The notes under the pieces: model-generated
What the model saw: only the letters and a program-made list of their open reading frames with translations
Told to the model about the DNA's origin: nothing
Databases searched by the model: none
In this document: positions 17,484-61,220 of the stretch, one piece after another
Position numbering within the stretch: the first letter of the stretch is position 1
Layout: every line of letters begins with the position of its first letter
Assembly (NCBI GenBank): GCA_016842005.1
Contig: JAENYD010000010.1
Span: 1-64,000 of the forward strand
Length of the DNA: 64,000 nucleotides
DNA from: Clostridium thermobutyricum
GTDB taxonomy: Bacteria; Bacillota; Clostridia; Ch29
Direction: 5' to 3'
Made by a program: the position numbers and the translations under genes

Positions 17484-17696
17484 TTAGTATTTTGATAAAA
17501 ATTCTGTTGGTGTTACTATTTCAGGACGGTCAATATCAACGACAACAAAATCTTTATCACCTGTTATGAGTACATCAACATCTTCCAATATTGCCGTTGC
17601 AAGAATAGGATAATCATATACATCCCGCATTGCCGGAAACTCATCCTTTTCAAGAAAGACAGGAGTATAAACAAGCTCATGCCGTGCAAACCTCAT
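17484..17696 (-). pseudogene. Truncated PIN-domain toxin remnant
   Basis: About 70 residues matching only the C-terminal half of PIN-domain ribonuclease toxins: RDVYDYPILATAILEDVDVLITGDKDF followed by IVTPTEFL. The N-terminal strand with the first catalytic aspartate is missing, and no antitoxin gene is adjacent, so it is probably a decayed toxin. It still has an ATG after GGGAGGGTTC, so a short product could be made. It lies downstream of the candidate Agr-controlled small RNA. Confidence 0.6.
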
Positions 17697-17721
17697 GAAC
17701 CCTCCCCCTTTGTCATGATAC

Positions 17722-17813
17722 AAAAAAGGTTCAAGCCCCGTCCGGGGAAGACGGGGCTTGAACGGATTATAAAGGGGTTTGTAAAGCAGTACAGGGGTAA
17801 TGATTCTCGCTGT
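17722..17813 (-). ncRNA. Candidate Agr-controlled small RNA (RNAIII-like)
   Basis: Predicted transcript of about 90 bases from a TATAAT at 17820-17825 to the strong hairpin GTTCAAGCCCCGTC / GACGGGGCTTGAAC (17729-17763) with six T after it. It has no open frame worth noting, but carries two unpaired C-rich patches (ATTACCCCTG and AAACCCCTTT) that could pair with GGGG-type ribosome binding sites. Two direct repeats of LytTR type lie just upstream of the promoter, next to the agr regulator gene. Expression and target pairing are inferred only. Confidence 0.5.
17729..17763 (-). terminator. Strong terminator hairpin
   Basis: Perfect 14-bp stem GTTCAAGCCCCGTC / GACGGGGCTTGAAC, seven-base loop, then CCTTTTTTG on the minus strand. 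It would end both read-through from the agr operon and the short RNA above. Confidence 0.88.
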
Positions 17814-17819
17814 GTTTAT

Positions 17820-17890
17820 ATTATAAACGAAAAAAAATAGAATTTCATCAGAAATTCCGTGAAAACGACCTTTATATGGCTGAAAACGAC
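17820..17890 (-). promoter_or_regulatory. Promoter with two LytTR-type direct repeats
   Basis: Two identical 10-bp repeats (GTCGTTTTCA on the minus strand, at 17860-17869 and 17881-17890) are separated by 11 bases, a 21-bp period as in AgrA and other LytTR operators. They lie 12 bases upstream of a weak -35 (ATGAAA, 17843-17848), which is 17 bases from a perfect TATAAT. A weak -35 next to an operator fits an activator-dependent promoter. Confidence 0.6.
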
Positions 17891-17892
17891 TT

Positions 17893-18642
17893 TTAGCTGC
17901 ATGAACAGGAACTTTGCCTAATCGAAGTTTCTATATCATTCACCTTTGTATAGGATAGCAGGGCAGTCTTTTCTATATTCTTGAACCTGATGGTGTACAG
18001 CTTCCGGCTGTAGTTCACTATCTTGTCCACATAGTAGATATTCACGATATAACTCCTGTGGGCCCTGAAGAACATCTCCCTGTCCAGGCGTCTTTCCAGG
18101 GCATTCAGGGAATCGTATGTCTCAAACTCTCCCCTGGCGGTAAATATGTTTGACTTGGGGTCTTCCCTTTCAACCATGACAATGTCCTGCTGGTCCAGGA
18201 ATATGATTTCCTCCCTGGTCTTGATGACTATCTTCTCCCTTCTCTTTTCCGAAGGGATGTTTACACCGGCATCCTTGATTTTTTTCAGTTTCATCATATT
18301 GCTGACCGTCTTCATGACCCTGACCCTGTCATAGGGCTTGACTATGTAATCGTATACGTAGAGCTTATAGGCATCCAGGGCATAACTGGTAAAGGCGGTG
18401 GTGACCACCACAAACACATCCGGGTCAATGGTCTTGATTATCTCTGTGGTGCTCAGCCCGTCCATGCCCGGGAGCCCGATGTCCATGAAAACCACATCCG
18501 GCGAAAGCTTCCTTACCATATTCACGGCAGTTACCCCGTCCGGGGCCCACCCCACTACCTCCACCTCTTCCATTTCCTTCAGCATTTCTTCAAGAAACCT
18601 GGCGTTTTCCTCCTGGTCTTCGCAGATCAATGCCCTCAGCAT
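17893..18642 (-). CDS. AgrA-type LytTR response regulator
   Basis: About 249 residues from the ATG eight bases after GGGAGG. Receiver domain with CEDQEEN and phosphoacceptor in VVFMDIGLPGMDG; the C-terminal LytTR DNA-binding domain covers about 145-245 (FFRAHRSYIVNIYYVDKI). It closes an operon of kinase, AgrB and AgrD, so it should be activated by the peptide-sensing kinase. Its operator may be the direct repeats found immediately past its stop codon. Confidence 0.88.
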   Translation of the reverse strand: MLRALICEDQEENARFLEEMLKEMEEVEVVGWAPDGVTAVNMVRKLSPDVVFMDIGLPGMDGLSTTEIIKTIDPDVFVVVTTAFTSYALDAYKLYVYDYIVKPYDRVRVMKTVSNMMKLKKIKDAGVNIPSEKRREKIVIKTREEIIFLDQQDIVMVEREDPKSNIFTARGEFETYDSLNALERRLDREMFFRAHRSYIVNIYYVDKIVNYSRKLYTIRFKNIEKTALLSYTKVNDIETSIRQSSCSCS

Positions 18643-18688
18643 GGGCATGCCTCCCTTCCCGGCATCCTGCAATTTCTGCCCTTACGGT

Positions 18689-18717
18689 GTTGAGGTGGAC
18701 TGTATGTCCACCTCAAC
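18689..18717. repeat. Hairpin between agrD and the regulator gene
   Basis: Perfect 12-bp inverted repeat GTTGAGGTGGAC / GTCCACCTCAAC with a five-base loop and no T run. It could stabilise or attenuate the upstream message, giving more peptide and processing enzyme than regulator. Confidence 0.6.
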
Positions 18718-18727
18718 GGCAGCACTA

Positions 18728-18856
18728 CTATTTCCTGAGCATTTCTGGAGTCTCTGGCTGGTACAGATAACTTAAACTTGCGCCACCTGCGAATGCTGCG
18801 GCTACCAGTGTGAGCAGTGTAGCCAAGATACCGAATACATTAGCTTTTTTCATCAT
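18728..18856 (-). CDS. agrD: AgrD-like cyclic lactone autoinducer precursor (serine type)
   Basis: A 42-residue peptide in the intergenic stretch between agrB and the regulator, with RBS AGGAGG. It has an amphipathic hydrophobic leader (KKANVFGILATLLTLVAAAF), a core ASLSYL, and the charged recognition tail YQPETPEMLRK, matching AgrD organisation. In the alignment with YxPxxP-tailed AgrD peptides the ring-forming cysteine, five residues before the tail tyrosine, is Ser27. The product would thus be an oxygen lactone SLSYL ring instead of a thiolactone. The start overlaps the agrB end by 17 bases. Confidence 0.85.
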   Translation of the reverse strand: MMKKANVFGILATLLTLVAAAFAGGASLSYLYQPETPEMLRK

Positions 18857-19478
18857 GCACACCTCCTCTTCTTTCTAACATGCGTTCAATACTGTTTGCC
18901 AGCCTGTAACCGGCGTCCGTGAGGGTGAACCCCTCCAGGGCAAGGCCGGTCACAAGGCTGAAATGGTACCAGCCTGTCCTGCCCTGTACAATATACATAG
19001 CGGCCAGGCACGCAAAGACGGTTCCCGCAAACACAAAGGACATCTTCCGGAACTTCGGCAGCTCCTCCTCCTTTATAAGCCGGTTGGGATTGTCCCTGGG
19101 GGAATATCTCCACAGGCTGTATACTACCAGGCCCGCTGCCGACAAAAGGTATGCCGTTCCCGCATCCCGGGGACAGGTATAAAGGTAACCGGCCGCATAG
19201 CCTGCCGCCGAAAGCATGAATACGCTCGATACATAACACCGGGGGTATGTGGAAAAGTGCACCCCTCCCGCCATCATCCTCATGGCGGAAAAGACAAGGG
19301 CCACCGCCACCACCTCTTTGAACAGTCCCAGGGCAAGGCCTATAAGGACAACCGATATAAATTCGACAATAGTGCCCAGGACAGCCTGGAGCCCGTAGCT
19401 TATCACCTCTGTGTACTCCTGCCCCCTGCCGGACCGCCGCACTATGACCTCAGCCATCCTGTCGCTTATCCCTTTCAT
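18840..19478 (-). CDS. agrB: AgrB-type peptide-processing membrane protease
   Basis: About 212 residues, with several membrane segments and the catalytic pair GGVHFSTYPRC, where His and Cys are seven residues apart as in AgrB cysteine proteases. It cuts the AgrD tail and closes the ring at the membrane. Start taken at the ATG eight bases after GGGGAGG; a GTG three codons earlier overlaps the RBS. It overlaps the kinase gene by 29 bases and agrD by 17. Confidence 0.92.
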   Translation of the reverse strand: MKGISDRMAEVIVRRSGRGQEYTEVISYGLQAVLGTIVEFISVVLIGLALGLFKEVVAVALVFSAMRMMAGGVHFSTYPRCYVSSVFMLSAAGYAAGYLYTCPRDAGTAYLLSAAGLVVYSLWRYSPRDNPNRLIKEEELPKFRKMSFVFAGTVFACLAAMYIVQGRTGWYHFSLVTGLALEGFTLTDAGYRLANSIERMLERRGGVHDEKS

Positions 19479-20337
19479 GCCCGCCACCTCCCCGGGGAAG
19501 CTCCACCAGCACCCTTACCCCTTTCCCCGGGCCGCTGGCAACTTCCACCCTTCCATTATACATGTCCACAATGTCCTTTACCACATAAAGCCCCATCCCC
19601 CGGCTTTTCCCCTCTTTGGTGCTCACCCCCGGCTCAAATATCCTCTCCAGGACTTCCTCCCTTATATGGCCGGGGTTCTTGATATCCATGAATATGCCGC
19701 TGCTGTCGCTGTAAAGCAGGAGAGAAACCTTCCTGTCCTCTGTTCCGGCTTCCTCCGCCCCTTCTATGGCATTGTCCAGGAGGTTCCCCAGTATCCTGGA
19801 AAGGTGTATAACCTTTATTTTCCCGTTTTCAAACTCCCCCTGTATGTCGTACTCCAGGCCCACTCCCCGGCTTTTCGCCAGGTGCAGTTTTGCGGTGACA
19901 ATGGCGGAGATAACCGGGCTGGAGATGTCCAGGAGCTCGTTTGCCTGGATGATTTCCCCCGTGAGGTCTTCCAGGTATCTCAGGGCGGAAGGGTATTTCC
20001 CCTTCAGTACGAGGGAGTAGATTATCTGCATGTGGTTGTTGAAGTCGTGGCGCTGCCCCCTCAGCACCTCGTTAAGGGCCCTGATATGCCTGCTGTTGGC
20101 CTCCTGCACCTCCAGCTCCCGCTTCTTCAGTGCCATATTGAACAGCTTGCTCACGGATATGACTGTTACCACTGTAAGGACCATCACTATATAAAGCAGG
20201 TAAGGTACTATTCTGAGGATGACTTCAATCTGGTACCCCGTGTGCCCGCTGAGAAACAGGCTCTGGAATATGACAATTAGCACAATTGACTGTGTCAGGA
20301 TAATACATATGATATAAAAGATGTTTATATCAAGCAT
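19450..20337 (-). CDS. AgrC-like GHKL sensor histidine kinase
   Basis: About 295 residues with two N-terminal membrane segments only (IFYIICIILTQSIVLIVIF and IVPYLLYIVMVLTVVTVI), a histidine in GQRHDFNNHMQIIY, and ATPase boxes GNLLDNAIEGAEE, and GMGLYVVKDIV. Classic AgrC has six segments; here the sensor is shortened and the adjacent small membrane protein may supply the rest. It should phosphorylate the LytTR regulator of this operon. Confidence 0.85.
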   Translation of the reverse strand: MLDINIFYIICIILTQSIVLIVIFQSLFLSGHTGYQIEVILRIVPYLLYIVMVLTVVTVISVSKLFNMALKKRELEVQEANSRHIRALNEVLRGQRHDFNNHMQIIYSLVLKGKYPSALRYLEDLTGEIIQANELLDISSPVISAIVTAKLHLAKSRGVGLEYDIQGEFENGKIKVIHLSRILGNLLDNAIEGAEEAGTEDRKVSLLLYSDSSGIFMDIKNPGHIREEVLERIFEPGVSTKEGKSRGMGLYVVKDIVDMYNGRVEVASGPGKGVRVLVELPRGGGGHERDKRQDG

Positions 20338-20815
20338 CTGCCTTCCCTTCTTCACAGGTGGACACATCAATGACCTTAAAGTCATATTTGCGGCACAACA
20401 GGACTATAACAAGCATCATGAGCTGCTCGGGTACGGACAGGCCTATCCTGATCCAGACATTGCTCAGCACTGTTTCATAGGGTATTCTTTTCATAACCAG
20501 AGGGAGGTAAAGGGTGTCCAGGACACCCAGGAACACGGCAAATCCGAGGAGAACTCCCGGAAACACCACCTGCCATCTATACCTCAAGATTACTTTTATC
20601 AGGATGATAGCAGTAAATGTCTGCAAGACTATATGTACCCCGTAGACAAAGGGGAGCGCCCTGATAAAATAGGAGCACAGGGCCTGAAATACGGCAAATA
20701 TCCCCAGCTTCTTCAAATCAGGCCTTACCCCGACAAAGGTAAATCCCATCAGATTGATCAGAAAAGCCTCCGGTATGCTCACAAACACCACTGCCTGCCA
20801 CGGCATTACATCCAT
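20330..20815 (-). CDS. Membrane protein, first gene of the agr operon
   Basis: About 161 residues with four to five hydrophobic segments and no catalytic motif (for example GIFAVFQALCSYFIRALPFVYG, VVFPGVLLGFAVFLGVLD). Family not recognised. Its stop overlaps the kinase gene start, so both are translated together. Since the kinase has only two membrane segments, this protein may be a separated sensor part of the peptide receptor; that is inference. It starts 32 bases after cheW. Confidence 0.75.
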   Translation of the reverse strand: MDVMPWQAVVFVSIPEAFLINLMGFTFVGVRPDLKKLGIFAVFQALCSYFIRALPFVYGVHIVLQTFTAIILIKVILRYRWQVVFPGVLLGFAVFLGVLDTLYLPLVMKRIPYETVLSNVWIRIGLSVPEQLMMLVIVLLCRKYDFKVIDVSTCEEGKADA

Positions 20816-30106: not shown

Positions 30107-30225
30107 GACACTCCTTCTCTCATCCAGACTGTAACTGTCGGCCCCGGAATTTCGCCGGGTCAGCCTTATTATCAGGCTCGCGGGCTATACCGCCGGTCGG
30201 GAATCTCACCCTGCCCCGAAGGAAA
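30107..30225 (-). promoter_or_regulatory. FMN riboswitch
   Basis: The RFN element is plain on the minus strand: CTTCGGGGCAGGGTGAGATT, CCGACCGGCGGTA, GCCCGCGAGCC, CCGGCGAAATTCCGG, GACAGTCTGGATGAGAGA-like end (here with TTACAGTC). It senses FMN and shuts down the rib operon. Confidence 0.97.
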
Positions 30226-30244
30226 ATATTCATCTTTGATAAAT

Positions 30245-56209: not shown

Positions 56210-56221
56210 TGGTTAAACGAT

Positions 56222-56520
56222 TATATCGCTTAATTCCCTCCGGGGAAGCGGGGGAACCAATCTTTGGGGTGAATCCTATCCCTATAGCATCATCTTAATA
56301 ATCGCTGCTCATGATTACATAATCCTGATCAAAAACTGTATAGGAAAGGCAACCAAAATCTTGTTTTAAACTGCTTTTCTTCGTATTGTTCTATTTGTGT
56401 CTCTATTTGTAAACTTTTCATTATTCAGCGATTTATTGCAGAAATTTGAACAGGATAGGTAGGGTTATACTCTTTCGGCCCGAACCCGTCAGCTAACCCC
56501 GTAAGCGTTGAAAGGAAGGA
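56222..56520 (+). promoter_or_regulatory. c-di-AMP (ydaO/yuaA) riboswitch with a large insertion
   Basis: The conserved ends are clear: CGCTTAAT, GCGGGGGAACCAA, TTGGGGTGAATCC at the 5' side and CCCGAACCCGTCAGCTAACC, GTAAGCG at the 3' side, where CGCTTA pairs with TAAGCG to close P1. The middle stem CCTATCC / GGATAGG encloses about 170 AT-rich bases (56282-56451) in place of a short loop. No standard terminator was seen before the gene, so the output may be translational. Confidence 0.9.
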
Positions 56521-56611
56521 TGAATATGGGGATCCTGTACGCTTTAGTTCTGTTTGAATGGCCGTAGCCTGTTCCTCTTAAATGAGAAAAAAATTTGAAG
56601 GGAGGAAGACT

Positions 56612-60919: not shown

Positions 60920-61110
60920 CTTATCCCGGGCAGTTGCCGTTCCATCAGGCAGGTCTTCTGGCTCTCGTGTCATCCTCCTCCCACACCTTCCTGCAGTATA
61001 TCTGCAGTGGCACGCCGGGGATTCGTCTCCGATTACAGCGGCGGGTCCGCGCCGGGATTTCACCGGCTTCCCTATTATCCCTCTTAAAAGGGCACCTGAC
61101 AGCGTCATTT
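60920..61110 (-). promoter_or_regulatory. Cobalamin riboswitch
   Basis: Minus strand carries the B12-box and core: TCAGGTGCCC, AATAGGGAAGCCGGTGAAA, GCGCGGACCCGCCGCTGTAA, GGAAGGTGTGG, GATGACACGAGAGCCAGAAG, ACCTGCC. Fits the adenosylcobalamin class. It controls the small cysteine-rich gene below it; the SLC13 transporter upstream is not in its path. Confidence 0.96.
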
Positions 61111-61220
61111 CAGTATGTTGTTGTTTAAATAGATTATATAGGATTCCATACCAAAACACAATAATAAAAACATTTATTTCTGTCCCGGTTATAAGGTCTC
61201 AGGAACGAAAACCCACCGTA

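Follow-up and report, generated by a model that had tools for sequence, protein, structure and literature searches.

Immediately downstream of agrA, in the 64,000-nucleotide stretch of DNA analysed here (the window), lies what is very probably a genuine free-standing and conserved small RNA (sRNA) gene. On balance we favour the reading that this agrA-adjacent sRNA is driven by phosphorylated AgrA and blocks translation of agrX-agrC-agrB-agrD as negative feedback. The DNA itself displays a conserved gene, a distinctive promoter architecture and complementarity between the RNA and the start region of agrX, the name coined here for the first gene of the agr set.

All elements of the gene lie on the minus strand. 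Three nucleotides past the agrA stop codon begins the first of two identical 10-bp copies of GTCGTTTTCA (distal LytTR-type box, 17890-17881; proximal box, 17869-17860), which are separated by an 11-base gap to give a 21-bp period; allowing up to three mismatches, the expectation for such a pair from shuffling is 0.02 per window. Next to the repeats are a weak, non-conserved −35-like hexamer (ATGAAA, 17848-17843) and a perfect −10 box (TATAAT, 17825-17820), from which we infer a transcription start near 17813. The predicted sRNA (17813-17722, ~90 nt) comprises a 42-nt conserved core (AATCATTACCCCTGTACTGCTTTACAAACCCCTTTATAATCC, 17805-17764), which includes pairing sites A (17805-17793) and B (17781-17770), and an intrinsic terminator detected in a terminator scan. 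The terminator hairpin (17763-17729) has 15 pairs, carries CCCC in its loop and is followed by C and six T (17763-17722 in all). No minus-strand open reading frame of at least 30 amino acids was present within the predicted transcript. The predicted fold was 5.9 s.d. better than that of the transcript's own shuffles, owing to the terminator, and the part 5′ of the terminator was predicted to be largely single-stranded, including both ACCCC patches; the third CCCC is that of the terminator loop. An earlier note on this DNA had described the repeats just past the agr regulator stop, the TATAAT with its weak −35, about 90 non-coding bases ending in a terminator with six T, and C-rich patches able to bind GGGG ribosome-binding sites. 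This layout was borne out, with the stem recounted from 14 bp to 15 pairs.

We compared the window's genome (G000) with four relatives from the same uncultured Bacillota family (G002-G005), which encode AgrA orthologues of 63-66% identity. Downstream of agrA, each relative carries these repeats, TATAAT, a core that hardly varies (AATCATTACCCCTATACTGCTTTATTAACCCCTTTATAATCC; one nucleotide is deleted in G002) and a terminator in which two-sided changes maintain the pairing of the stem. Conservation of the repeats and the hairpin in relatives that keep agr had been set beforehand as a test, and it was passed in four of four. Mean pairwise identity across the five genomes was 96% for the core, 80% for the repeats, 71% for agrA, 70% for the terminator, 60% for the spacer between box and TATAAT and 48% for the DNA past the terminator. 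When 391 genomes of the class were searched with a covariance model, strong matches (E 4e-21 or better) occurred in these five only, each after agrA, and a pattern scan of GTDB contigs returned the same four relatives, all of them metagenome-assembled genomes. A sixth genome of the family (G001, 93% complete) lacked a close agrA, any agrB match and the sRNA, in keeping with the sRNA's co-occurrence with agr. These searches point to a new family of sRNAs that, within the genomes covered, is limited to one uncultured family of Bacillota. Weak covariance-model matches in other families (G255, G208, G061 and others) aligned poorly with the core; those inspected (in G255, in G208 and on contig G000:C32) were within genes or at terminators and were taken as chance. 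Separately, a metagenome-assembled genome labelled Clostridium thermobutyricum (L047, JAENYX010000025.1) has an agr locus and sRNA that group with the uncultured family, making the label doubtful.

The geometry of the promoter is retained among the five genomes. Counted from the G of the proximal CGTT, TATAAT lies 41, 41, 40, 41 and 41 nt away, a near-constant distance although the intervening DNA has diverged, and the repeat period was 21 bp (20 in G002). With the start placed near 17813, the two G fall at about −53 and −74. This resembles the SpoZ promoter of C. difficile, as described for the LytTR regulator RgaR, at which the critical G are at −51 and −72 (PMC10602386). The AgrA-controlled promoters of S. 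aureus are suboptimal, with the promoter-proximal repeats centred at around −60 (PMC4227749). An operator search of the five genomes (at most two mismatches, fixed spacing) yielded a single other perfect match, in G002, the remaining matches having two mismatches; no second operator of the same kind was found in the 64-kb window. The paired direct repeats of ~21-bp period at a fixed distance 5′ of the promoter, together with a cognate LytTR regulator (PF00072 and PF04397) encoded beside agrB, agrC and agrD, make it highly likely that the sRNA gene is LytTR-controlled. AgrA is the presumed binder, as judged by its position and its PF04397 domain; other LytTR proteins are present in each genome, and a different one may bind instead. 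The additional perfect operator copy in G002 (L049:1501-2222, G002:C35) lies 5′ of a c-di-GMP-I riboswitch and a gene for a 125-aa LytTR-only protein, so that AgrA is perhaps not the sole candidate binder in that genome.

Taken singly, the repeats, TATAAT and terminator are each short elements common in AT-rich DNA, but their assembly by chance, without function, is refuted by a five-genome conservation that contrasts strongly with the flanks, and we regard it as scarcely credible. Hardly more plausible is a leader or attenuator of the downstream gene, in the window a PIN-domain fragment (17484-17723). The terminator does lie just upstream of this frame; however, what follows the sRNA varies from genome to genome (a PIN fragment, a dehydratase-like gene or a gene for a CAP-domain-like protein), and this largely refutes a leader. 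The element could also be part of the 3′-untranslated region of the agr mRNA, acting mainly in cis (on the mRNA end or its stability, or by 5′-3′ pairing with agrX), or be processed from that mRNA. It is always found after agrA. From the agrA stop to 17763 the scan showed no terminator, so that read-through agr mRNA would share this hairpin as its end and may be the source of part of the RNA. Against this account, which we consider improbable, stands a dedicated promoter, with TATAAT and boxes at fixed spacing, in five of five genomes despite a spacer of 60% identity.

A free-standing sRNA gene would here adjoin the genes whose expression it is predicted to control. AgrB, AgrD, a sensor kinase and a LytTR regulator are encoded together (17893-20337), constituting an agr quorum-sensing system. 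On the minus strand these are agrA, a response regulator with receiver and LytTR domains (17893-18642; PF00072, PF04397); agrD (18728-18859; TIGR04223); agrB (18840-19481; PF04647); and an agrC-type histidine kinase gene (19450-20337; Pfam GHKL/HATPase, with NCBIfam HisKinAgrCStaph below cut-off). Ahead of them is agrX (20330-20815), which is conserved in the relatives, matches no Pfam family and encodes a membrane protein of 161-163 amino acids with about five helices by hydropathy. The reading frames overlap from agrX to agrC, agrB and agrD (stop/start codons at 20332/20337, 19450/19481 and 18840/18859). In relatives where sequence was available the order is cheW-agrX-agrC, with agrB, agrD and agrA next.

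When the sRNA was paired with the 53 gene starts of the window, agrX gave by far the best energy (−34.6 kcal/mol). Within its translation initiation region (20840-20814), TAAAGGGGTTTG (20840-20829) is perfectly complementary to sRNA site B, and a second helix of 8 bp is predicted closer to the start. Pairing each sRNA with its own agrX gave 12-13 contiguous base pairs in all five genomes, with differing segments of the sRNA taking part. The longest helix joins CAAACCCCUUUA with UAAAGGGGUUUG in G000, UUAUUAACCCCUU with AGGGGGUUAAUAA in G002, and AAUCAUUACCCCU with GGGGGUAAUGGUU in both G003 and G005. In G004 the agrX site consists of 12 bp and a second upstream block: GGGGUAAUGAUU, directly before the ATG, and AAUAAGCAGUAUAG, upstream of it, can pair with neighbouring stretches of the core. 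The helix scores of G000, G002, G003 and G005 were reached by one of 76 start regions in the window, namely agrX itself, and by none or one of 154 background regions. The sRNA of G000 reads CAAACCCC where the others read TTAACCCC (CA for TT), and its agrX site contains the matching UUUG. This matched change and the switching of segments among genomes suggest that it is the pairing itself that is being kept. Two genome-wide searches for the extended complement of sites A and B returned agrX as the sole orthologous group at a gene start, the sRNA locus aside. In themselves, the agrX start regions were not unusually structured.

Through composition alone, an RNA rich in C finds partners in many GG-rich start regions. 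Mononucleotide shuffles gave z-scores that made agrX look too good, and the sRNA was shuffled by dinucleotides instead as the stricter control. Judged by these shuffles, the energies gave p values of 0.007 (G000), 0.039 (G002), 0.33 (G003), 0.0085 (G004) and 0.009 (G005), the complementarity in G003 being weak by energy (p 0.19-0.33). Several scores were examined, the genomes are relatives of one another and agrX had been spotted as a target before the contiguous-helix test was chosen, so the p values are to be read as support and give no clean joint probability. On this evidence the sRNA probably acts on agrX. The sRNA of G002 also had a good match in the agrA start (L231, near 4596), at −25.3 kcal/mol and a simple-shuffle z of −3.9, which was not so in the other genomes.

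In the proposed circuit, phosphorylated AgrA would bind both direct repeats and turn on a promoter that combines a good −10 with a poor −35. The product would be an RNA of ~90 nt, formed by the single-stranded 42-nt core and the terminator hairpin, whose core would pair with the ribosome-binding site of agrX, first gene of agrX-agrC-agrB-agrD. Since the four frames overlap, a block at agrX should lower the output of all of them, and via translational coupling there would be less receptor kinase, less of the enzyme that processes the peptide and less signal peptide. Activation by AgrA and a block of agrX would together form a negative feedback loop. Pairing over a ribosome-binding site usually results in repression, and we lean towards a repressor that provides feedback; the sRNA may instead activate agrX, and targets beyond agrX are possible. 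The usual picture of an agr system is a positive loop, with RNA as the output to other genes. We suggest only tentatively that here an sRNA-based negative loop replaces the usual AgrA-driven positive one, so that agr would limit the production of its own receptor and signal. If true, an RNA made under the regulator and aimed at the receptor and signal operon would render the agr circuit self-limiting, with a logic comparable to the Vibrio Qrr loop but in Gram-positive-type bacteria, and it would offer a concrete two-part system of one 42-nt core and one start region.

The RNA could also be a global effector in the manner of RNAIII or VR-RNA, its C-rich patches blocking many ribosome-binding sites of the GGGG type and agrX being at most one target. 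Such a role would be compatible with feedback on agrX, and a core of 42 nt that is near-invariant over four genera fits multiple targets. The two C4 patches and the further one in the terminator loop recall LhrC (PMC4132741), and several start regions carry AAAGGGGT, among them, in five genomes, that of a CotE-like gene for a spore coat protein. AAAGGGGT occurs before ATG 25-45 times per genome, above the reversed control. However, G001, which has neither agr nor the sRNA, contains 26 AAAGGGGT-ATG sites compared with 25 and 28 in G004 and G005, and it has the same AAAAGGGGTG at its CotE-like gene, which we therefore dismissed as evidence for a target. Nor did TAGGGGTA-ATG sites, the complement of site A, exceed their reversed-pattern control, and no orthologous group other than agrX displayed extended pairing. 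As the sRNA-less genome matches its congeners in both respects, a large regulon that has co-evolved with the sRNA is not apparent at the present sensitivity, and a mainly global role appears unlikely, though less so than the alternatives considered above. The description of the locus in the earlier note as RNAIII-like and quorum-controlled thus stands for a compact non-coding gene with a LytTR-type operator beside agrA, kept with agr in five genomes. Its effector part does not find the genome-wide co-evolved GGGG sites that it would call for. With agrX the best-supported target, the RNA is better understood as acting in feedback.

The same note had called such a layout not commonly reported in Clostridia, which is too strong a claim given the LytTR- and Agr-controlled RNAs already known there: VirR drives VR-RNA, VirT and VirU in C. 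perfringens (PMC4963840), RgaR drives the sRNA SpoZ in C. difficile, and Agr regulons are described as generally including a small regulatory RNA (PMC10602386). These RNAs share with ours promoters with LytTR (VirR/RgaR) direct repeats. They differ in size, VR-RNA having 386 nt and SpoZ ~530-560 nt, and the VR-RNA, VirT and VirU genes are scattered and away from agrBD (PMC4963840, PMC10602386). Feedback on agr by pairing is not described in the parts of these two papers that were consulted.

RNAIII is a long structured RNA of 514 nt that encodes delta-haemolysin. The S. aureus RNA and the one described here have in common a LytTR agr regulator, paired direct repeats 5′ of a suboptimal promoter, a position beside the agr genes and a C-rich pairing motif. 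In contrast to RNAIII, which is divergently oriented, the present sRNA has ~90 nt, lies 3′ of agrA in the same orientation, contains no reading frame for a small peptide of the delta-haemolysin type (at least 30 amino acids, minus strand) and has the agr operon as its best predicted target. A further site of AgrA action in S. aureus is the agr promoter P2 (PMC4227749); in the 64-kb window we found no second operator like the one beside the sRNA. No Rfam family matched the sRNA region at cut-off, and the best sub-threshold matches were to families other than RNAIII. LhrC of Listeria, RsaE/RoxS and FsrA are likewise small RNAs that block Shine-Dalgarno sequences through C-rich motifs in single-stranded parts, and LhrC additionally resembles our RNA in having such a motif in its terminator loop and in depending on a two-component system (PMC4132741); the Rfam covariance models of RsaE/RoxS (18.6 of 79 bits, on the other strand) and FsrA (17.8 of 80 bits) scored far below cut-off. 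The Qrr sRNAs of Vibrio are quorum-controlled and act in negative feedback on their own circuit (PMC2680268). The likeness is one of logic only, here a predicted base-pairing with an mRNA of the own circuit, since organisms, regulators and sequences are unrelated. A search of the open-access literature found no prior case of an agr sRNA that targets its own operon. What appears to be new here is the family as such, its position right behind agrA and the predicted target inside its own operon.

The locus has several further features. AgrD carries a serine at the position of the usual cysteine (GGASLSYLYQPETPEMLRK; GGASFTLLYQPETP, GGASFSYLHQPETP and GSASFSYLYQPETP in relatives), which suggests a lactone signal peptide instead of a thiolactone. 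The AgrC-type kinase has about two predicted membrane helices and the adjacent agrX product, without a Pfam family, about five; the two together could constitute a split AgrC receptor. The PIN fragment just past the sRNA terminator, found only in G000, has 79 amino acids and is weakly similar to PIN-family toxins (TIGR00305, below cut-off). Elsewhere in the window, Rfam riboswitches were detected for FMN (30108-30227), c-di-AMP (56217-56523) and cobalamin (60931-61112).
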